DNA of 64,000 nucleotides. Source: Luteimonas panaciterrae. Lineage in GTDB: Bacteria > Pseudomonadota > Gammaproteobacteria > Xanthomonadales > Xanthomonadaceae. Made by a program: the position numbers and the translations under genes. The stretch spans positions 1 to 64,000 of the forward strand of contig NZ_JAJAVH010000002.1 in the NCBI RefSeq assembly GCF_020511115.1. Reading direction: 5' to 3'. The notes under the pieces are model-generated. The model searched no databases, had not been told where the DNA came from, and was given only the letters and a program-made list of their open reading frames with translations. How positions within the stretch are numbered: position 1 is the stretch's first letter; every line of letters starts with the position of its first letter. Shown here in pieces: positions 19,655 to 28,444 of this stretch.

Positions 19655-20038
19655 ATGCCCCGCGCCCCAATCAGCACCGACCAAGCCCCGTCCGCCATCG
19701 GCCCGTATTCGCAGGCCGCACGTGCCGGGAATACCGTGTTTCTTTCCGGCCAGATCGCGCTGGATCCGGCGACCGGCAATTTGGTCGATGGCGGTGTTGA
19801 AGCGCAGGCGCGGCGCGCATTCGAAAATCTGAAAGCAGTCTGCGCCGCGGCCGGTGGTTCGCTCGACGACGTGGTGCGGGTCGGGCTCTATCTCACCGAT
19901 TTGGGCGCTTTCGCCGAGGTCAATGCGGTGATGGGCGAGTACTTCACGGCGCCTTATCCGGCACGTTCCACCATCGAGGTGTCGGCGCTGCCGAAGGGTG
20001 CGCAGTTCGAGGTGGATGCGATTCTGGTGTTGAGCTGA
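19655..20038 (+). CDS. ridA: RidA family reactive enamine/imine deaminase
   Basis: The product is 127 aa, the standard RidA (YjgF/YER057c/UK114) length. It hydrolyses 2-aminoacrylate and related enamines released by PLP enzymes. The conserved active-site Arg is in [16 protein letters not shown], preceded by [21 protein letters not shown] and [17 protein letters not shown]. The spoT-ridA-recG neighbourhood is familiar from other gammaproteobacteria. Here a repeat island sits before it and an accessory block after it. Confidence 0.95.
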
Positions 20039-20054: not shown

Positions 20055-21092
20055 TCAGCGGCGAATCCGCGCCTCGCGCGGCGCCACACCGGTCCAGCGT
20101 TTGAACGCGCGCCGGAATTCACGCGCGTCGCGGAAGCCGACGCGCGCGCCGATCTGGGTGATCGACAGCTGGCCTTCGCGCAGCAGGTCGTGCGCTCGTT
20201 CGCTGCGCAGCTGATCGTGCATTTCCTTGAAGCCGAAGCCGGCGGCGGACAGTTGCCGGCGCAAGGTGCGTTCGGTGAGATGCAGGTCGGCGGCGATGTC
20301 GGCCAGTCTCGGGTTTTCCTGCAGGCGTTCGCGTAGCAGGTTGCGCACGGTGGCGACGATTTCGCTGGCGCCCTGTCCATCCGGCATCATCGCGCGGCAT
20401 AGCGCAAGAGCTTGTTGCGCGCTGACCGGGTTGTAGGTCGGCAATGCATGAGGCATCCAGCTGGTGTCGATCATGACGCGGTTGCGCGGCATGCCGAAAC
20501 GCACTTCGCATTCGAACAACGCGTCGTATTCCGCCGCATAGGCTGGCGCGGGGTAGGTGAGTTCCAGGCGTCGCGGTTTGAAGTTCGCGCCGACCAGTCC
20601 GCGGCATAGCATCAAAGTGCTGGCGAACAGCTCCTCGCACAGGAACGGCAGGATCTGCGGCTCCTGCGCGCGCGGATGCGCGACCATCGCCACCACGCCG
20701 GATTCGGATGTATCGAGTTCGAGATCCATCAGCCCGCCGGACACGGGCGCGTACTGCATTCCGATGCCGACCGCGTCGCCGAACGTGCGCGCGGTCATCA
20801 TCGCCAGGCCGAGCAATCCGAAATTGCCGATGTTCTGCCGGCGGCCCAAACGCAGGCCGAGATCGGGAAGCGACAGCGCACGCATCGCGCGCTGCACGAT
20901 GCGGCTGGCCTGTCGGTAGGAGACGCGCACGCTGGCATCGTCGATCTGCGCGCGCGTCAGCCGCAGTCCGGCGAACCATGGTTCGCAGGGAACATCCTGT
21001 TCGTCGGCGACCATGCACAGTCCGGACAGGATGTTGGTAGCGTTGCTTGCAGTCGTAAGCCGAGGATCGATGGGCGGGTGTGGCGAGCGCAT
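20055..21092 (-). CDS. AraC-family regulator with N-terminal Arabinose_bd-type domain
   Basis: The product is 345 aa from the ATG at 21092; the open frame continues upstream to 21362 but reads antisense into the next gene's promoter. The N-terminal half (about 30-220) resembles the ligand domain of the OruR/VirS group. The C-terminal double helix-turn-helix (about 245-340) has RLADIAADLHLTERTLRRQL and ITQIGARVGFRDAREFRRAFKRWTG. It is divergent from the beta-helix/cytochrome/TonB-receptor genes across a 115-nt gap, so it is their likely activator. The inducer is unknown; relatives respond to organic substrates. It is convergent with ridA (16-nt gap). Confidence 0.93.
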   Translation of the reverse strand: MRSPHPPIDPRLTTASNATNILSGLCMVADEQDVPCEPWFAGLRLTRAQIDDASVRVSYRQASRIVQRAMRALSLPDLGLRLGRRQNIGNFGLLGLAMMTARTFGDAVGIGMQYAPVSGGLMDLELDTSESGVVAMVAHPRAQEPQILPFLCEELFASTLMLCRGLVGANFKPRRLELTYPAPAYAAEYDALFECEVRFGMPRNRVMIDTSWMPHALPTYNPVSAQQALALCRAMMPDGQGASEIVATVRNLLRERLQENPRLADIAADLHLTERTLRRQLSAAGFGFKEMHDQLRSERAHDLLREGQLSITQIGARVGFRDAREFRRAFKRWTGVAPREARIRR

Positions 21093-21207
21093 CAAATTGT
21101 CCGTTTTGCCCCCCGTCAGTATGCCGTGATTGCCCTCCACTTGCGACGATGCGCGTCGGAGACTGGAATGCGCAGGCTGGCGCGGCGCCGGTCGTGGAGA
21201 GGATGCG

Positions 21208-22425
21208 ATGAAGCGCACATTTTTGGCCTTGGCCGTGCTCGGCCTGCTGGCGGGCTGTGGCCGCGACGGCGGCGGGAACACCCCTGCCGCGCCTGCGGCG
21301 AACGCCGAGTTCCAGAAGACGTTGCAGCAACGTCTGCTCGATGCGAAGACCGGCGAGGTCATCGAGATTCCCGCCGGCCGCTACGCCTTCGATCGCAGCC
21401 TGAGCCTGCGCGTGAACGGCGTGACCATCCGCGGTGCCGGCAAGGACAAGACCGTGCTCAGCTTCAAGGGACAGAAGAGCGGCGCGGAAGGGCTGATCGT
21501 CAACGCCGACAACTTCACGCTGGAGAATCTCGCGATCGAGGACAGCAAGGGCGACGGCCTGAAGGTCAACGAAGGCGAGAACATCATCATTCGCGGCGTG
21601 CGCGTGGAATGGACCAACGGGCCGGATACCGACAACGGTGCCTATGGTTTGTATCCGGTGCAGAGCAAGAACGTGCTGATCGAGGATTCCGTGGTGATCG
21701 GCGCGTCCGACGCCGGCATCTACGTCGGCCAGTCGCAGAACATCGTGGTGCGCCGCAACCGTGCCGAGCGCAACGTGGCCGGCATCGAGATCGAGAACTG
21801 CATCGGCGCCGATGTGCACGACAACGTCGCCACCGAGAACACCGGCGGCATCCTGGTGTTCAACATGCCCGATCTGCCGCAGCCGGGACACACCACGCGC
21901 GTGTTCAACAACAATATCTTCAAGAACAACACCGACAATTTCGGCCGCAAGGGCACGGCGGTGGCCAGTGTGCCGGCGGGGTCGGGCGTGGTGATCATGT
22001 CCAACGACGACGTGGAGATCTTCGGCAACGAGGTGTCCGACAACAAGACCGCCAACGTCATCATCGCCAGCCATTACTCGGCCGGCTATGAGGGCAAGTA
22101 CAAGCCGGCGCCGACGTTCGATCCGTATCCCGAGCGCATCTACGTGCACGACAACAAGTTCTCCGGCGGTGGCGATTCGCCCGACGGGCTCGAACTGAAG
22201 GCGCTGAAACTGGCGATGTTCGGCCTGGGCGGCCATCTGCCCGACGTGATGTGGGACGGTTACGTCAACACTAAGCGCACCGAGGGGCCGCAGATTTGCA
22301 TCCAGGGCGCTTCGGGTGTGATCAACGCCGACGGCCCCAACAAGAACAAGAATCCGAAGTCGGATGCCGCACCGTTCAACTGCAAGCTGGAGCCGTTGCC
22401 GCCGGTGACGCTGCAACTCGGTTAG
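21208..22425 (+). CDS. Parallel beta-helix repeat lipoprotein (TIGR03805-like)
   Basis: The product is 405 aa from the ATG at 21208. The N-terminus MKRTFLALAVLGLLAGCGRD is a lipoprotein signal with lipobox LAGC. From about residue 45 to 330 there are successive right-handed beta-helix rungs with alternating I/V and N/D/G ladders, such as NVLIEDSVVIGASDAGIYVG and NIVVRRNRAERNVAGIEIEN. The architecture and the neighbouring gene match the TIGR03805 family, which characteristically occurs as a two-gene pair with the TIGR03806 family. Beta-helix proteins often bind or cut polysaccharides, but no catalytic residues are evident here. It is first of three same-strand genes under the divergent AraC regulator. 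Function unknown. Confidence 0.87.
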   Translation: MKRTFLALAVLGLLAGCGRDGGGNTPAAPAANAEFQKTLQQRLLDAKTGEVIEIPAGRYAFDRSLSLRVNGVTIRGAGKDKTVLSFKGQKSGAEGLIVNADNFTLENLAIEDSKGDGLKVNEGENIIIRGVRVEWTNGPDTDNGAYGLYPVQSKNVLIEDSVVIGASDAGIYVGQSQNIVVRRNRAERNVAGIEIENCIGADVHDNVATENTGGILVFNMPDLPQPGHTTRVFNNNIFKNNTDNFGRKGTAVASVPAGSGVVIMSNDDVEIFGNEVSDNKTANVIIASHYSAGYEGKYKPAPTFDPYPERIYVHDNKFSGGGDSPDGLELKALKLAMFGLGGHLPDVMWDGYVNTKRTEGPQICIQGASGVINADGPNKNKNPKSDAAPFNCKLEPLPPVTLQLG

Positions 22426-22429
22426 CCGG

Positions 22430-23698
22430 ATGACGTCTAAGATTCGCTTTGCCCTGGTCCGTCGTTCCCGCGCAAGCGGGAGTCCATGGATGTCACCGCT
22501 GGACGCATTGTTGCAGAAGGAAAGCCCATGGGCTCCCGCTTGCGCGGGAGTGACGGCAGGCAGGCTGTTCGGTCTGTTGCTGATCCTGCTGCTCACCGCT
22601 TGCGCGCGCGAGCCCGCGCCCGTGCAGTTCCACGCCGACGGTTATCCGCCCAAGCTGAGCGACTGGCACGTGGTGAGCAGTGACGGCCAGCGACTGGCCT
22701 TGAACGAGGGTGTGGTGCCGTTCGATCTCAACACGCCGCTGTTCTCCGATTACGCGCACAAGCTGCGCACCGTGTGGATGCCGAACGGACAGGCGGCGAA
22801 ATACGAACCCGACGAGGCTTTCGATTTCCCGGTCGGCACGATCTTCAGCAAGACCTTCTTCTATCCCAGGGCCGGGAAGACCGCGGACGGTGGCGATGCG
22901 GTGGCACGCACCTACGACGAATCGCGCGATCGCAGCGGCGAAGGGCTGGATCTGCGCAACGTGCGCATGGTCGAGACGCGCCTGCTGGTGCATCGCAAGG
23001 ATGGCTGGGTGGCGCTGGCCTACGTCTGGAACCAGGAGCAGACCGAGGCCGAGCTGATGCGCACCGGCGACAGCGTGCCACTGCAACTGGTGGCGAGCGA
23101 TGGCAGCCGCGAGGATTTCACCTATCAGGTGCCGGACCAGAACCAGTGCGCCGGCTGCCACGCCAGCAACAACACCACGCGATTGATCCAGCCGCTGGGG
23201 CCGAAGGCGCGGCATCTCAATCGCGACTACGCCTACGCGTCCGGTAAAGAGAACCAACTGCAGCACTGGGCGAAGCTCGGTTATCTCACCGGCACGCCGG
23301 CGGGCACGCTGCCGCACAACGCCAATTGGCGCGATGCCGCCCATGCCAGCCTCGAGTCCCGCGCCCGCGCTTATCTCGACATCAACTGCGCGCACTGCCA
23401 CAACGCCAAGGGGCCAGCCGACACGTCGGGGCTGCTGCTGGAGATCGGCAGCCGCGATCCGCGCCACCTCGGCCTGTGCAAGCCGCCGGTGGCCGCGGGC
23501 CGTGGTACGGGCGATCGACGCTACGGCATCGTGCCCGGCAAACCGGACGAGTCGATTATGGTCTACCGTATGGACAGCGACGATCCCGGCGTGATGATGC
23601 CGGAGCTGGGTCGCGACGTGGTGCATCGCGAGGGGGTCGAGCTGATCCGGGAATGGATCGCGGCGATGGAAACAGGAGGCTGCGAGGCAGCGGGCTGA
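22430..23698 (+). CDS. Two-CxxCH haem-motif lipoprotein (TIGR03806/HNE_0200-like)
   Basis: The product is up to 422 aa. The start is unresolved. The ATG at 22430 lies 4 nt after the previous stop and could be reached by coupling. The ATG at 22490 has a GGGAG site 7 nt upstream, supplied by a REP repeat. The GTG at 22550 gives the neatest lipoprotein signal (GRLFGLLLILLLTAC, lipobox LTAC) but no spaced ribosome site. Two haem-attachment motifs, CAGCH (codon at 23147) and CAHCH (23387), lie in QNQCAGCHASNN and NCAHCHNAKG, so a periplasmic or outer-membrane c-type cytochrome is likely. The pairing with the beta-helix gene matches an uncharacterised conserved pair. I infer an electron-transfer or oxidative role on an extracytoplasmic substrate. 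Confidence 0.87.
   Translation: MTSKIRFALVRRSRASGSPWMSPLDALLQKESPWAPACAGVTAGRLFGLLLILLLTACAREPAPVQFHADGYPPKLSDWHVVSSDGQRLALNEGVVPFDLNTPLFSDYAHKLRTVWMPNGQAAKYEPDEAFDFPVGTIFSKTFFYPRAGKTADGGDAVARTYDESRDRSGEGLDLRNVRMVETRLLVHRKDGWVALAYVWNQEQTEAELMRTGDSVPLQLVASDGSREDFTYQVPDQNQCAGCHASNNTTRLIQPLGPKARHLNRDYAYASGKENQLQHWAKLGYLTGTPAGTLPHNANWRDAAHASLESRARAYLDINCAHCHNAKGPADTSGLLLEIGSRDPRHLGLCKPPVAAGRGTGDRRYGIVPGKPDESIMVYRMDSDDPGVMMPELGRDVVHREGVELIREWIAAMETGGCEAAG
22461..22554. repeat. Inverted pair of REP elements within the 5' end of the cytochrome-like gene
   Basis: 22461-22489 (GTCGTTCCCGCGCAAGCGGG plus AGTCCATGG) is inverted at 22526-22554 (CCATGGGCTCCCGCTTGCGC plus GGGAGTGAC). Each copy also contains its own CCCGC...GCGGG palindrome. 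About 36 nt lie between them. The pair overlaps all three candidate start codons of the downstream gene. Confidence 0.8.
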
Positions 23699-23749
23699 GG
23701 CCGAGGGAGCCAGGGAATGGCAACACAATCAACGCAAGGGGAGAGGGAA

Positions 23750-26263
23750 ATGTCGTTGAAACAACATGTCTTGTGCATTTCGATGCGTCGCGCGCTGATC
23801 GGCGCGTGCGCGCTGTCGTTCTCCGCGATCGCGCCGATCGCGGTCGCCCAGGAAGCACAGGAGGCATCGCCGCCGCAAACGCAGCCATCGCCGCAGGCGC
23901 AAGCGCCCGCGCAGGCGAAGGAAGCGGTGACGCTGGATCGCATGATCGTGACCGCGCAGAGCCGCGAGCAGGAATTGCAGGACGTGCCGATCGCGCTGCA
24001 GGTGGTGAACGAACAGCTGCTCGGTGATGTCGGCGCCGAGAATCTCGGCGATATCGAGGGGTTCGTGCCGGGTCTGCAGGTCAACAGCAACCAGCCGACG
24101 CAGCCCAGTTTCCAGCTGCGAGGCATCCAGACCGACGATTTCGGCATCGGTACGGATTCGGCCGTCGGCGTCTACATCGACGGCGTCTATGCGGGCCGAG
24201 GTGGCGGTGTGCTGCTACCGTTCACCGATGTTGAGCGCATCGAGATCCTGAAAGGACCGCAAGGCACGCTGTTCGGTCGCAACACCGCGGCCGGCGCCAT
24301 TTCGATCATCACCAACAAGCCCAGCGACGAGCAGGAAGCACGCGCCAAGCTGCGTCTGGGCAATGACCATAAGCAGTACCTCGAAGCGATGGTCAATCTG
24401 CCGACGGGCGAGGATTCGGCGCTGCGCTTGAACGGCCTGTTCAATCACAGCAAGGGCTGGATCAAGGACGCCGCCACCGGCGAGGATCTGAATCCCGAGA
24501 ACAACTGGGCGACACGCGCCGCCTGGCGCATGCGCTTCGGCGACAACACCAGCGCGGTGCTGAGTTGGGATCACGAAAGCCTGAGCCAGCGCGCGCAGGC
24601 GACGACCGGGATCGTTGCCCTGCCGCCTGAGCCCGGCGTGCCCCCGGTGCCGGTGGACGAGACCGCCTATCTCGATCCGCGCAAGACGCCGACCTACAAC
24701 GACGCCATCGGCAGCGACGAATCACGCCGTTTCGACGGCGTCACCCTGATCGTCGACCACAGCATGGACTGGGGTTCGATGACCTCGACCACGGCTTGGC
24801 GCGACTACGACTCCAACAACACCGCGGTCGACGAGGACGGCACCAATCGCCGCAACCTGTACATCGATTCCACCAACACCGAAAGCAGCCGCAGCTACTA
24901 CCAGGAGATCAAGTTCAACGGCAGCAACGAGCACGTCGATTGGGTGGCGGGCGCGAGCTACTACGACGAGAAGTCGCAGCAGACCAGCGAAGTGAACCTG
25001 TTCAGCGACAGCGTGGACACGGCGATGGTCAGCAGCGGTCTGATCCCGCCGGAATTCGTGCAGCCCAATGGTCCGCTGCCGCCGGGTGTCGGCTTGTTCA
25101 CCTTCGGCCAGGGATTGCTCGACGCGTTTAACATCCCGATCAAGCTGCTCGGACAACCCTGGAACGAGGCCTATCACAACAGGCTGAAGTCGAAGTCCTA
25201 CGCCTTGTTCGGCGACGTGATCTGGCACGTCAACGACAAGCTCAATCTCACCTTCGGCTTGCGCTACACGCGTGACAAGAAGGAGTTCAGCTGGTTCAAT
25301 CCCGATCGCACCGCGCCCGGACTCGACGCCAGCCTCGACCAGCTCGAACAGATGGGATTGCTGGCCGCGCTGGGCCTGAACCGGGATGACTTGCTCTTCA
25401 ACGTCGCCTTCAGCGATCCGGTGTCCGAGCTCTATCGCAATCAGACCGTGCGCACCAAGCACGCCTGGTCCGATTTCAGCCCGCGCTTCGTCGTCGACTA
25501 TCACCTCAACGATGACACCATGGTGTTCGCCTCGCTGGCGAAGGGCTACAAGGCCGGTGGCTACAACGCGTTGCAGATCAACAGCCGCTTCGACAACGAA
25601 GAGGTGTGGAACTTCGAGACTGGCATCAAGCAGGCATTCCCGGATCTGCGCCTGCAATACAACGCCTCGCTCTTCTACTACGTCTATGACAACCGGCAGT
25701 CGACGGTGCTGGATTTCAGCACCGACATCCCGCGCTTCGTGGTCGATACCGCCGACATCGAGGCCTACGGACTCGACTTCGACACGGTGTGGAAGCCGAC
25801 CGACGCGCTGAGCCTCGACTTCAACGTCGAATACATCGATTCCACGTACAAGGAGTACAAGGTCGGCAATGATGATTTGAGCGGGCAGCCCAGCGGCGAG
25901 CCGCGCTGGTCGTTCGCGGCCGGTGTGAACTACCTCTGGAATCTGAATGAGGCCGGCGATGTGCGCTTCACGCTCCGTCATGCCTATCGCGGCAAGGCCC
26001 GCTGCAACGATCAGTCGCAGGAGCAGGGCGCCTGTGGTCCCAGCCGCGCGCTCGACCTCGGCGAGGCGGAGAACCGCACCGACGTGCGCGTGGCCTGGAC
26101 CTCGCCGCGCGGGCACTGGACCTGGGCCGTGTTCGGCAACAACGTTTTCGACAACCAGTACATCAACTCGCTCGGCACCTACGGCAAGACCGTGCTCGGC
26201 ACGGTCGGCGCGCGCGTCACCGCGCCACGCATGTACGGTGTGGAGGCACAGCTGAAGTTCTGA
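23750..26263 (+). CDS. TonB-dependent outer-membrane receptor
   Basis: The product is 837 aa from the ATG at 23750, preceded by an extended purine-rich AGGGGAGAGGGAA ribosome site; an ATG at 23717 adds 11 residues. A signal peptide ends near IAPIAVAQEA. A TonB-box-like LDRMIVTAQ is followed by the plug domain with DVPIALQVVNEQ, RGIQTDDFG and VERIEILKGPQGTLFGRNTAAGAISIIT. A 22-strand barrel ends ...GVEAQLKF with a terminal aromatic. It would import a large or scarce ligand using the proton-motive force. It lies 51 nt after the cytochrome-like gene, so all three probably form one AraC-controlled operon. An intrinsic terminator follows. The ligand cannot be inferred. Confidence 0.93.
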   Translation: MSLKQHVLCISMRRALIGACALSFSAIAPIAVAQEAQEASPPQTQPSPQAQAPAQAKEAVTLDRMIVTAQSREQELQDVPIALQVVNEQLLGDVGAENLGDIEGFVPGLQVNSNQPTQPSFQLRGIQTDDFGIGTDSAVGVYIDGVYAGRGGGVLLPFTDVERIEILKGPQGTLFGRNTAAGAISIITNKPSDEQEARAKLRLGNDHKQYLEAMVNLPTGEDSALRLNGLFNHSKGWIKDAATGEDLNPENNWATRAAWRMRFGDNTSAVLSWDHESLSQRAQATTGIVALPPEPGVPPVPVDETAYLDPRKTPTYNDAIGSDESRRFDGVTLIVDHSMDWGSMTSTTAWRDYDSNNTAVDEDGTNRRNLYIDSTNTESSRSYYQEIKFNGSNEHVDWVAGASYYDEKSQQTSEVNLFSDSVDTAMVSSGLIPPEFVQPNGPLPPGVGLFTFGQGLLDAFNIPIKLLGQPWNEAYHNRLKSKSYALFGDVIWHVNDKLNLTFGLRYTRDKKEFSWFNPDRTAPGLDASLDQLEQMGLLAALGLNRDDLLFNVAFSDPVSELYRNQTVRTKHAWSDFSPRFVVDYHLNDDTMVFASLAKGYKAGGYNALQINSRFDNEEVWNFETGIKQAFPDLRLQYNASLFYYVYDNRQSTVLDFSTDIPRFVVDTADIEAYGLDFDTVWKPTDALSLDFNVEYIDSTYKEYKVGNDDLSGQPSGEPRWSFAAGVNYLWNLNEAGDVRFTLRHAYRGKARCNDQSQEQGACGPSRALDLGEAENRTDVRVAWTSPRGHWTWAVFGNNVFDNQYINSLGTYGKTVLGTVGARVTAPRMYGVEAQLKF

Positions 26264-26273
26264 GGCCAATCCC

Positions 26274-26301
26274 AACCCCGACCGCGCGTCGGGGTTTTGG
26301 T
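26274..26301 (+). terminator. Intrinsic terminator after the TonB-receptor gene
   Basis: A 9-bp stem AACCCCGAC/GTCGGGGTT (26274-26282 with 26288-26296, 5-nt loop) is followed by a short T-rich tail. It ends the beta-helix/cytochrome/TonB operon before recG. Confidence 0.75.
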
Positions 26302-26329
26302 TTGCGGGCGTTCCCGGCATGCTTGTCGC

Positions 26330-28444
26330 ATGCCGGCGTCCGTTCCCAATCCATCCGCATCTGATCGCGTCGATCCCGCCCACACGCCGTTGACGGCTCT
26401 GCCGGGCGTCGGCGCGCGCGTGGCGGAAAAGCTCGCGGCGCGCGATCTCCACAACCTGCAGGACCTGTGGCTGCTGCTGCCGCGGCAGTACGAGGACCGC
26501 ACCGCGCTGACACCGATCCGGGTGCTGCAGCCGGGCCTGACGGCGCAGGTGGAGGGCAGGGTGGAGGCGGTCGAGCGCGGTTTCCGCTATCGGCCGATGC
26601 TGCGCGTGGCGATCAGCGACGGTTCGCAGGGCACGCTGGTGCTGCGTTTCTTTCATTTTCGCGCGGCGCAGGTGGCGCAGTTCACGCCGGGCGCGCGACT
26701 GCGCGCCTATGGCACGCCGCGTCCGGGCCAGCATGGTCTGGAAATGGTGCATCCGAGCTATCGCATCCTCGGCGCGGACGATGCCGCCGAGCTGAGCGAA
26801 GGGCTCGATCCGGTCTATCCCGCCATCGAGGGCATCGGCCCGGCGACACTGCGCAAACTGATCGGACAAGCGCTCGATCATCTGCCCGACGAGCAGGCGC
26901 TGGAACTGCTACCGCAGGCGTGGTTGCAGGAACGCAAGCTGCCCGGCCTGCGCGATGCATTGCGGATCATGCATCGCCCGCCGAAGGATGCCGACGTGGC
27001 CGCGCTGCTGGCCGGTACGCATCCTGCGCAGCGTCGTCTGGCATTGGAGGAATTGCTCGCCCACCATCTCAGCCTGCGTCGTCAGCGCATCGCCTTGCAG
27101 GCGCATGCGGCGACGCCGCTGCGTGGCGGGACATTGGCGGACAAGTTGCGCAAGGCATTGCCGTTCGCGCTCACGGGCGCGCAGGAGCGCGTGTACGCGC
27201 AGGTGCGCGAGGACTTGGCGAAGGCGATGCCGATGCTGCGCCTGGTGCAGGGCGATGTCGGCAGCGGCAAGACCGTGGTCGCGGCGCTCGCGGCGCTGCT
27301 GGCGATCGAGAACGGGCGGCAGGCCGCGCTGATGGCGCCGACCGAGCTGCTCGCCGAGCAGCACCTCAACAATCTGCGCGCATGGTTGGAGCCGCTCGGT
27401 GTGCGCATCGCCTGGCTGGCGGGCAAGGTCGCCGGCCGCGCGCGTGAAACCGCGCTGGCGTCGGTGGCTGGTGGCGAAGCGCAGTTGGTCGTCGGTACGC
27501 ATGCGCTGATGCAGGAGGGTGTGGTCTTCCGCGATCTCGCGCTGGCGATCGTCGACGAGCAGCATCGCTTCGGCGTGCACCAGCGCCTGGCATTGAGAGA
27601 CAAAGGCGGCGAGGACGGCCGCGTCCCGCATCAGTTGGTGATGACCGCGACGCCGATCCCACGCACGCTGGCGATGGCGGCCTACGCCGATCTCGACGTC
27701 TCGGCGATCGACGAACTGCCGCCGGGCCGCACGCCGGTGCAGACGGTCGTGCTCAGCGGCGAACGCCGGCCGGAGCTGGTGGAACGCATCCGCGCCGCCT
27801 GCGCCGAAGGACGGCAGGCGTACTGGGTGTGCACGATCATCGACGAATCGGATGAAGTGATCGCGCAGGCCGCGCAGGCCACGTTCGAAGCCTTGTCGAA
27901 GGCGCTGCCGGCATTGCGCGTCGGCTTCGTGCACGGGCGCATGAAGGCACGCGACAAGCAGGCGGCGATGATCGCGTTCAAATCCGGGGAGCTCGATCTG
28001 CTGGTGGCGACCACGGTGATCGAGGTCGGCGTCGACGTGCCGAATGCTTCGTTGATGATCGTCGAGAATGCGGAGCGGCTGGGGCTGGCGCAATTGCATC
28101 AGCTGCGCGGCCGTGTCGGTCGCGGTTCCGCGGCATCGACTTGTGTGCTGCTGTACCAGCCGCCGTTGTCGATGATGGCGAAGCAGCGATTGGAGACGAT
28201 GCGCCAGACCAACGACGGCTTCGTCATCGCCGAGAAGGATCTGGAACTGCGCGGTCCCGGCGAACTGCTCGGCACGCGTCAGACGGGTTTGGCTGCGTTC
28301 CGCGTCGCCGATCTGGCTCGCGATGCCGATCTGCTGCCGTTCGTGCATCGCGTGGCCGAGCGTCTGCTGCAGGAATCGCCGCAGCTGGCGGACCGGCTGG
28401 TCGATCGCTGGATCGGCAGCGCCGCGCGCTATGCCGCTGCCTGA
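26330..28444 (+). CDS. recG: ATP-dependent DNA helicase RecG
   Basis: The product is 704 aa from the ATG at 26330; an upstream in-frame TTG gives only 11 extra residues and overlaps the terminator tail. RecG remodels stalled replication forks and Holliday junctions. The wedge OB-fold (about 55-150) follows LTALPGVGARVAEKLAARDL. Helicase motifs are GDVGSGKT (Walker A), DEQHRFGVHQR (DEXH box), MTATPIPRTLA, and ATTVIEVGVDVPNA with QLRGRVGRG (motif VI). Length matches the family (about 690 aa). No RNA gene or partner follows; the 28445-28640 gap has only weak remnants. Confidence 0.97.
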   Translation: MPASVPNPSASDRVDPAHTPLTALPGVGARVAEKLAARDLHNLQDLWLLLPRQYEDRTALTPIRVLQPGLTAQVEGRVEAVERGFRYRPMLRVAISDGSQGTLVLRFFHFRAAQVAQFTPGARLRAYGTPRPGQHGLEMVHPSYRILGADDAAELSEGLDPVYPAIEGIGPATLRKLIGQALDHLPDEQALELLPQAWLQERKLPGLRDALRIMHRPPKDADVAALLAGTHPAQRRLALEELLAHHLSLRRQRIALQAHAATPLRGGTLADKLRKALPFALTGAQERVYAQVREDLAKAMPMLRLVQGDVGSGKTVVAALAALLAIENGRQAALMAPTELLAEQHLNNLRAWLEPLGVRIAWLAGKVAGRARETALASVAGGEAQLVVGTHALMQEGVVFRDLALAIVDEQHRFGVHQRLALRDKGGEDGRVPHQLVMTATPIPRTLAMAAYADLDVSAIDELPPGRTPVQTVVLSGERRPELVERIRAACAEGRQAYWVCTIIDESDEVIAQAAQATFEALSKALPALRVGFVHGRMKARDKQAAMIAFKSGELDLLVATTVIEVGVDVPNASLMIVENAERLGLAQLHQLRGRVGRGSAASTCVLLYQPPLSMMAKQRLETMRQTNDGFVIAEKDLELRGPGELLGTRQTGLAAFRVADLARDADLLPFVHRVAERLLQESPQLADRLVDRWIGSAARYAAA

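Follow-up and report, generated by a model that had tools for sequence, protein, structure and literature searches.

The window analyzed here, a 64,000-nucleotide (nt) stretch of the Luteimonas panaciterrae genome (contig NZ_JAJAVH010000002.1), carries a four-gene cassette that encodes an AraC-family regulator and, divergently from it, a parallel beta-helix protein of the family TIGR03805, a diheme c-type cytochrome of the family TIGR03806, and a TonB-dependent receptor. Comparison across genomes indicates that this cassette is probably one real uptake-and-oxidation device. At its center, the helix and the cytochrome are strongly supported as partners that would work as one complex, because they are found fused, closely spaced, and co-varying. 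The more specific explanation that we favor is a tentative one, namely, a single regulated unit for the uptake and oxidation of a small organic compound.

Linkage was traced in a sample of 297 Xanthomonadaceae genomes, in which the cytochrome was called by the TIGR03806 cutoff and the receptor by a separate search with a receptor alignment. The cytochrome exceeded its cutoff in 73 genomes and the receptor subfamily was independently found in 76. Both were present in 73, the receptor alone in 3, an over-cutoff cytochrome alone in none, and neither in 221; that is, the two were jointly present or jointly absent in 294 of the 297. In every one of the 73 carriers, the receptor gene neighbors the cytochrome gene by coordinates. 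The regions read from 60 of the 72 other carriers (the remaining 12 contribute adjacency from coordinates) all hold the helix, cytochrome, receptor, and divergent AraC genes in identical order, with ridA upstream in 53, a recG homolog downstream in 55, and both flanks in 53. Moreover, ridA is directly adjoined by recG in 19 of the 19 genomes tested that do not have the cassette, and AraC follows ridA in the three carriers of the genus (3/3). Thus, genomes either have or lack the four-gene block at a single chromosomal site. Since the genomes of one family are related, these linkage counts do not stand for independent events. Within the genus, TIGR03806 was over its cutoff in 2 of 37 genomes, which makes it an accessory trait there. 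Among 52 genus genomes, 3 had a receptor score above 1200 bits (the next best reached 389), and the third of these, G711, has the whole cassette. These receptor searches scored the best 19 candidates per genome in the genus and the best 3 in the family.

The exceptions within the family are of different kinds. Genome G339, which is 57% complete, has the cytochrome in three pieces beside the receptor. In G309, ridA, AraC, receptor, and recG are kept and both lipoprotein genes were not found in the locus (L211:5328-9078), and in G317, a variant arrangement of the MauG type has the window-type receptor directly downstream of it. The receptor frame is interrupted in L200 (G158) and in G249. The preliminary description of this DNA had proposed that missing linkage in other genomes, or heme motifs that were not conserved, would speak against a module. 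The linkage counts above go the other way, and so do the motifs: C200xxCH204, C280AHCH284, and Met350 are invariant in 73/73 aligned cytochromes (70 of the 80 loci of the set described below, L082, L083, and the window), and each of the 60 copies from the family has at least two CxxCH motifs (60/60).

The association of helix and cytochrome is seen in their variation, their spacing, and their fusions. Across 52 loci, the pairwise distances of the helix track those of the cytochrome with a correlation of 0.94, or 0.89 once ridA is removed; for AraC and the cytochrome, the corresponding values are 0.83 and 0.71. In the 60 family regions, the distance from the helix stop codon to the aligned cytochrome start has a median of 86 nt (range, 64 to 314), a gap largely filled by the signal peptide; to the nearest in-frame cytochrome start, the median is +3 (range, -8 to +9), a measure that favors short gaps. 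In a sample of the class, TIGR03805 was over its cutoff in 15 of 369 genomes. A separate, adjacent pair occurs in seven of these (G000, G070, G088, G047, G388, G508, and G623), and a single open frame encodes a helix-cytochrome fusion in four (G367, G380, G454, and G570), G380 having further copies. Three others (G692, G597, and G462) have a helix followed by an in-frame cytochrome c motif, with a MauG/MbnH-like gene just upstream, and in one (G687), the helix and cytochromes lie on separate contigs.

Partners can also be exchanged. A MauG/MbnH-like enzyme takes the place of the TIGR03806 cytochrome beside helix-cytochrome c fusions in L212, L236, L237, and L238, and the L212 operon (L212:1774-7658) comprises a two-domain cytochrome c, the MbnH/MauG-like enzyme, the helix-cytochrome c fusion, and a window-type receptor. 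On the other side of the pair, the four long helix-less frames that were scanned with Pfam (L120, L122, L124, and L138) all have a GSDH (sugar dehydrogenase) domain (PF07995) ahead of the cytochrome domain (4/4); the two-heme domain is of the same type as in the window, but it is joined to GSDH instead of a beta-helix and scores under the TIGR03806 cutoff. Among the nine helix-less loci of the 80-locus set, three have a GSDH gene 115 to 129 nt downstream, and no partner gene was found for the other six, some of which are cut by contig ends. Because of these fusions and partner swaps, the two-heme domain behaves like an electron-transfer module that serves more than one partner. One locus has three related cytochrome genes in tandem (L242:64-4275), with no helix gene on its 6.9-kb contig.

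Beyond the family, we compared 80 loci with a related cytochrome, drawn from a capped list of the nearest relatives by similarity to the window cytochrome. The locus sets overlap, as L148/L002, L154/L003, and L187/L024 seem to be the same records; gene calls in the compared loci are mechanical, and receptor types other than the modeled ones could be missed. The helix gene adjoins the cytochrome gene in 71 of the 80 loci, and the receptor subfamily of the window lies within 2 kb of the cytochrome in 9. It follows the cytochrome in L002, L003, and L024, from the window's family, and in L011 (a Vitreoscilla metagenome-assembled genome [MAG]), L016 (Duganella), and L019 (a Roseateles MAG); in L034 (where the contig end cuts it), L042, and L044 (Kangiella), it lies upstream of the helix gene in divergent orientation. 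The subfamily is thus also found next to the pair in betaproteobacteria and Kangiella. Environmental isolates that have the cassette or the receptor-linked pair include Luteimonas gilva H23 and Duganella sp. Root336D2. A different receptor is located about 3.2 kb downstream of the cytochrome, after a pyrroloquinoline quinone (PQQ) alcohol dehydrogenase, in L028 and L033, and in L245, a PQQ alcohol dehydrogenase and a receptor converge on the helix-cytochrome pair. AraC homologs of more than 100 bits were found in 3 of the 80 loci (L002, L003, and L024), with five others at 17 to 31 bits; a divergent AraC gene also stands beside the helix in L247, from another family of the order (332 bits), and beside a fused helix-cytochrome gene in L248 (115 bits). 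According to these locus counts, the helix-cytochrome pair is the core, which receptor and AraC accompany in some lineages. The inducible uptake-and-oxidation module of the preliminary description is partly supported. Gene order, adjacency, near-abutting helix and cytochrome genes, and the operator-like block speak for one inducible-looking unit in this cassette, whereas the polymer or sterol-like ligand on the helix, its oxidation by the cytochrome, and its import by the receptor stay putative, and receptor and AraC cannot be taken as general to the pair. In several of these loci (L012, L018, L022, L026, and L038, Maricaulis-like records), a membrane transporter gene that resembles sodium/bile-acid symporters (named by eye) recurs upstream, no more than about 1 kb from the helix gene.

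In the window, the order from left to right is ridA, the AraC gene on the minus strand, beta-helix, two-heme protein, TonB receptor, hairpin, and recG (Table 1), and the four genes, with AraC divergent, and the terminator-like hairpin are all present as earlier described. Family membership is clear for both lipoprotein candidates, the beta-helix protein scoring 456.7 bits against a curated TIGR03805 cutoff of 141.5 and the two-heme protein 412.2 bits against a TIGR03806 cutoff of 313.3; the latter is the single TIGR03806 match in the window's own genome. The regulator belongs to the PF12625-type AraC family (PF12625, 153.4 bits; HTH_18, 68.6 bits), and it stays below the equivalog cutoffs of QhpR (156 of 250 bits), CypR (117.4 of 500), and GliR (142.5 of 570). 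The receptor has both Plug and beta-barrel domains (PF07715, 69.5 bits; PF00593, 99.7 bits). The hairpin alone is weak evidence of termination, because the region has 15 such sites versus 6.5 expected.

Table 1. Features of the cassette and its flanks, with positions in the window
Feature	Position	Strand	Basis or remark
ridA, left flank, outside the cassette	19655..20038	+	TIGR00004, 164.3 bits
AraC-family regulator, PF12625 N-terminal domain and HTH_18	20055..21092	-	Divergent from helix gene
Operator-like element, TTGTCCG-5-CCCCCC-5-TATGCCG-5-GCCCTC, two similar halves	21097..21137	+	Window aligned with 60 divergent regions
TIGR03805 parallel beta-helix protein, predicted lipoprotein (LLAGC lipobox)	21208..22425	+	Profile match, fold model
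TIGR03806 (SO2930 family) diheme c-type cytochrome, predicted lipoprotein (LLLTAC lipobox)	22430..23698	+	Open frame
Inverted repeat like repetitive extragenic palindromic (REP) elements, within 5' end of cytochrome frame	22458..22552	.	Between helix stop codon and cytochrome signal peptide
TonB-dependent receptor, distinct subfamily	23750..26263 (alternative start 23717)	+	Plug and barrel models over cutoff
Terminator-like hairpin, T-rich tail	26274..26296	+	9 pairs
recG, right flank, outside the cassette	26297..28444	+	Open reading frame; named by eye and by synteny

The preliminary description of two lipoproteins, one of them with two hemes, is borne out by the lipoboxes and the CxxCH motifs, with a reservation about the 5' part of the cytochrome frame. 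The frame has an alternative GTG start at 22550, its conserved part begins at about the same position, and the stretch with the REP-like repeat is unaligned and about 88 nt longer than in L145, with the frame open throughout. Since this repeat precedes the sequence for the cytochrome signal peptide, translation may not include the initial part of the frame. Furthermore, among 70 helix rows, a crude lipobox pattern matches 45 (43 of the 48 rows of proteobacterial type), and among the 60 family copies, it matches 39 helices and 42 cytochromes, so that the lipoprotein status cannot be extended to all relatives. For the AraC frame, longer upstream starts are possible, up to 21362, but they cross the conserved operator-like block.

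That block is the one found between the AraC and helix genes when the window and 60 loci are aligned, and it reads TTGTCCG, five bases, CCCCCC, a short spacer, AGTATGCCG, and then GCCCTC; AGACT is located downstream of it, at 21160-21164. Its strict first half occurs in the AraC-helix gap of 43 of the 60 family regions; in a larger set of 214 loci, where some genomes are represented more than once, it occurs in 62. The two halves resemble each other, as is the case for the direct repeats to which AraC proteins bind, and the AraC protein of the cassette would be expected to bind this element. The 30-base stretch at 21097-21126 has its sole occurrence in the whole genome here at up to 3 mismatches (the reversed control gave zero), and since the window's genome has this one stretch, a regulon search offers no further regulated genes.

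The model of the helix protein (predicted local distance difference test [pLDDT], 93.7) is a parallel beta-helix by fold comparison, and its nearest solved folds are nearly all carbohydrate-acting beta-helix enzymes. In an alignment of 70 helix proteins (67 of the 80 loci, L082, L083, and the window), Lys119, Trp135, Asn143, Tyr146, Tyr149, Asp168, Tyr172, Gln175, Glu196, and Asn197 are identical in all 70, and Glu194 is kept in 69. When the repeated motifs are lined up by eye, Lys119, Tyr149, Tyr172, and Glu194 appear to share one face. Of 15 more distant helices, the nine outside the MauG group, L239, and L240 all keep Trp135, Tyr149, Asp168, Tyr172, Glu194, and Glu196, and five of them keep Lys119. 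The four MauG-associated helices keep Tyr146, Asp168, Tyr172, Glu194, Glu196, and Asn197. Lys119 was considered as a catalytic residue, being invariant in 70/70, and was rejected because four further helices have Glu (L249, L250, and L251) or Arg (L241) in its place; the MauG group has Met. Two outlying helices retain fewer of the conserved residues. One of them (L240:1554-2861) is over the TIGR03805 cutoff, with no cytochrome on its 5.9-kb contig and most of the conserved face missing, and the other (L239:6018-10768) is a weak relative under the cutoff, on the opposite strand from the receptor gene that follows it.

In the explanation that we favor, the AraC protein would sense the compound or its product and turn on the divergent three-gene operon, as the divergence and the operator-like block suggest. 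The dedicated TonB-dependent receptor, judging from the function of its family, would bring the compound through the outer membrane into the periplasm, where the beta-helix and the diheme cytochrome, tethered as lipoproteins, would form one oxidoreductase. The helix would provide the binding surface and probably the active surface as well, and the cytochrome would accept electrons and hand them to the respiratory chain. The genomic comparisons support a periplasmic oxidoreductase with a dedicated receptor; we infer in addition that the complex oxidizes its substrate, that this substrate is what the receptor imports, and that the active site lies on the conserved helix face. The substrate is most likely an alcohol- or sugar-like organic molecule. 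A bolder proposal, which we hold to be doubtful, is that TIGR03805 is a new beta-helix redox enzyme in which the face with Tyr149, Tyr172, Glu194, and their neighbors binds and oxidizes an organic substrate, with its own TonB receptor in this lineage. Electrons would then leave through an exchangeable cytochrome, which could be TIGR03806, as a separate or a fused partner, or else a cytochrome c that is fused to the helix and assisted by a MauG-like protein.

Several observations weigh against this explanation. There is no cytoplasmic catabolic gene inside the cassette, and the operator stretch occurs only once in the genome. Receptor distances correlate more weakly than those of the other genes over the same 52 loci, at 0.61 with the helix (0.40 after removing ridA) and 0.58 with the cytochrome (0.37); with the receptor models used, no receptor was found nearby in 60 of the 71 helix-cytochrome loci, and the receptor can apparently serve alone, since G309 keeps it without the helix-cytochrome pair. 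As for the helix, no redox cofactor was seen in it, and we know of no beta-helix oxidoreductase. Its proposed active face varies, with Phe for Tyr149 (4/4), Met for Lys119, and no Trp135 (3/4) in the MauG-associated helices, and with little of it kept in L240 even though that helix is over the family cutoff. Lys119, moreover, is unlikely to be essential to the chemistry because it is replaced in further helices.

The same proteins can be read as a system for metal acquisition, which we consider unlikely, where the receptor would import a metal chelate, the cytochrome would reduce it, and the helix would act as a docking surface or carrier, the metal being freed in the periplasm. The receptor plug is indeed closest to siderophore-type receptors (TIGR01783, 150.1 bits, under the cutoff of 223.5), and all 32 of its PDB matches are siderophore, pesticin, colicin, heme, metallophore, or B12 receptors. 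The best stretch of each of the 32 falls within residues 24-351 of 837, and reading the receptor ligand from solved structures failed, as only N-terminal stretches matched. The helix exceeds the cutoff of the Pfam NosD model (47.5 bits, cutoff 23.6) but not that of NosD TIGR04247 (42.9 bits, cutoff 300). In four variants, the partner of the helix is an MbnH-like enzyme; in the excerpts consulted, MbnP/MbnH pairs are reported near TonB receptors (PMC3621798) and MbnPH-like genes in copper-related operons (PMC9426467), although the first of these excerpts also states that no data then linked close MbnP homologs to copper. On the other hand, among the 70 helices, conservation of 80% or more is reached by none of the His or Met columns and by only two Cys columns, the regulator is a PF12625 AraC protein and not Fur, and the GSDH and alcohol dehydrogenase neighbors point to organic substrates. 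The oxidation of an imported organic compound is favored over metal reduction because the pair keeps the company of sugar- and alcohol-oxidizing enzymes and TonB receptors.

MauG and MbnH oxidize residues of their partner proteins, and by analogy, the cytochrome might oxidize helix residues rather than a small substrate, leaving the matured helix as the working part. The replacement of TIGR03806 by a MauG/MbnH-like diheme enzyme beside the helix in the four variant loci would fit such a maturation pair, as would the invariance of Trp135, Tyr146, Tyr149, and Tyr172 in the 70 canonical helices. However, the MauG-associated helices lack Trp135 (3/4) and have Phe for Tyr149 (4/4), TIGR03806 proteins do not clearly resemble the MauG model (at E values up to 10, 9 of 73 members match, the best at 0.14), and a permanent helix-cytochrome fusion suggests continuous electron transfer; we thus regard maturation as improbable. 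Comparable doubts attend a nonredox role in carbohydrate processing, with the helix acting on an imported glycan in the manner of a lyase or epimerase and the cytochrome in an unrelated envelope role. In fold, the helix is closest to AlgE4, RbmB, PL6 lyases, and GH28 enzymes, and there is a weak profile match to the PL6 enzyme BcAlyPL6 (E value, 1.2e-4), but this likeness may only mirror the common beta-helix fold, the helix is fused to and co-varies with the cytochrome, and no glycan-degrading gene was recognized within the cassette. This role, too, is rather improbable. Finally, the cassette could be a chance grouping or merely the joint inheritance of one chromosomal neighborhood, given that one site is common to 53 of the 60 family regions, possibly from one ancestral event, and that the counts are not independent. 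Against this stand the joint presence or absence of cytochrome and receptor across the family sample, the adjoining ridA and recG where the cassette is absent, and the recurrence of the receptor subfamily beside the pair in L011, L016, L019, L042, and L044, which together leave chance very improbable.

TIGR03805 and TIGR03806 are known families without a functional name, and no functional study of the pair was found within the paper listings and excerpts consulted; TIGR03805 is mentioned in two papers and TIGR03806 in none, and none joined the terms for helix, diheme cytochrome, and receptor. The window proteins agree with the known pair in being over both cutoffs and adjacent, as in the majority of the 80 loci, and differ from it by the addition of the receptor, the divergent AraC gene, and the conserved operator-like block. 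The A-module of the mannuronan C5-epimerase AlgE4, the first of the solved folds, resembles the helix as a parallel beta-helix (template modeling score, 0.54 by query length) but at 18% identity, a likeness of fold. To our knowledge, AlgE4 and related beta-helix enzymes have no cytochrome partner. The polyethylene glycol (peg) operon has a receptor, an oxidizing enzyme, and an AraC regulator, as in the cassette, but its oxidizing enzyme differs. Among described systems, the MbnP/MbnH ones (MopE/SACCP, CorA/CorB) come closest, according to the excerpted text, in that they combine a diheme enzyme with a partner protein near a TonB receptor (PMC3621798). Their membership does not extend to the window, where the five scanned proteins gave no TIGR04039 or partner match, and an MbnH-like protein is found only in the variants L212 and L236-L238, below threshold (L212, 205.2 of 362.85 bits). 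We therefore file the cassette with TonB-linked periplasmic redox loci, as a new variant. In Shewanella, SO2930 and SO2931, possible orthologs of the window genes, are named as outer-membrane cytochromes in excerpts of four papers that give no function for the pair, and SO2931 is among the genes deleted in a multi-deletion strain (PMC5829830, PMC10986466, PMC5955497, PMC4837345).

The cassette makes testable two families that had been defined as a pair without a function. Its receptor narrows the cargo to compounds that TonB receptors carry, the operator-like block provides a basis for a reporter to find the inducer, and the fusions indicate the proteins that belong together in a purification. 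If catalysis resides in the beta-helix, an oxidoreductase would be added to a fold known mostly for sugar-acting enzymes.

Genes of the wax ester/triacylglycerol synthase family were observed near helix-cytochrome fusions at L248:8022-9137 (300.2 of 309.95 bits) and L250:2088-3500 (512.1 bits); a lipid substrate suggested by these neighbors was set aside, as two loci are too few. The cytochrome model (pLDDT, 90.1) had no PDB match at an E value of 0.001 or less and 337 matches at E values up to 10. A P460 domain in its N-terminal half, suspected by eye from the order of motifs, was not assigned and is kept as a lead. Pfam P460 (PF16694) gave 11.8 of 27 bits; the window protein had an E value of 0.32, and 46 of 73 cytochrome family members matched at E values up to 10 (best, 5.4e-5). 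Profile comparison scored 32.3 with the full alignment and 29.1 with the N-terminal half, at a probability of about 26% in both. The latter score (hhalign) was above 40/40 column shuffles and the reversed control, but 15 block shuffles out of 100 attained it, with the heme motif alone as the best path, as did 6 out of 100 in global mode, and the P460 fold was not among the best 50 of the 337 Foldseek matches. A separate cytochrome P460 family protein is encoded elsewhere in the window's genome, at G000:C18:100094-100465.

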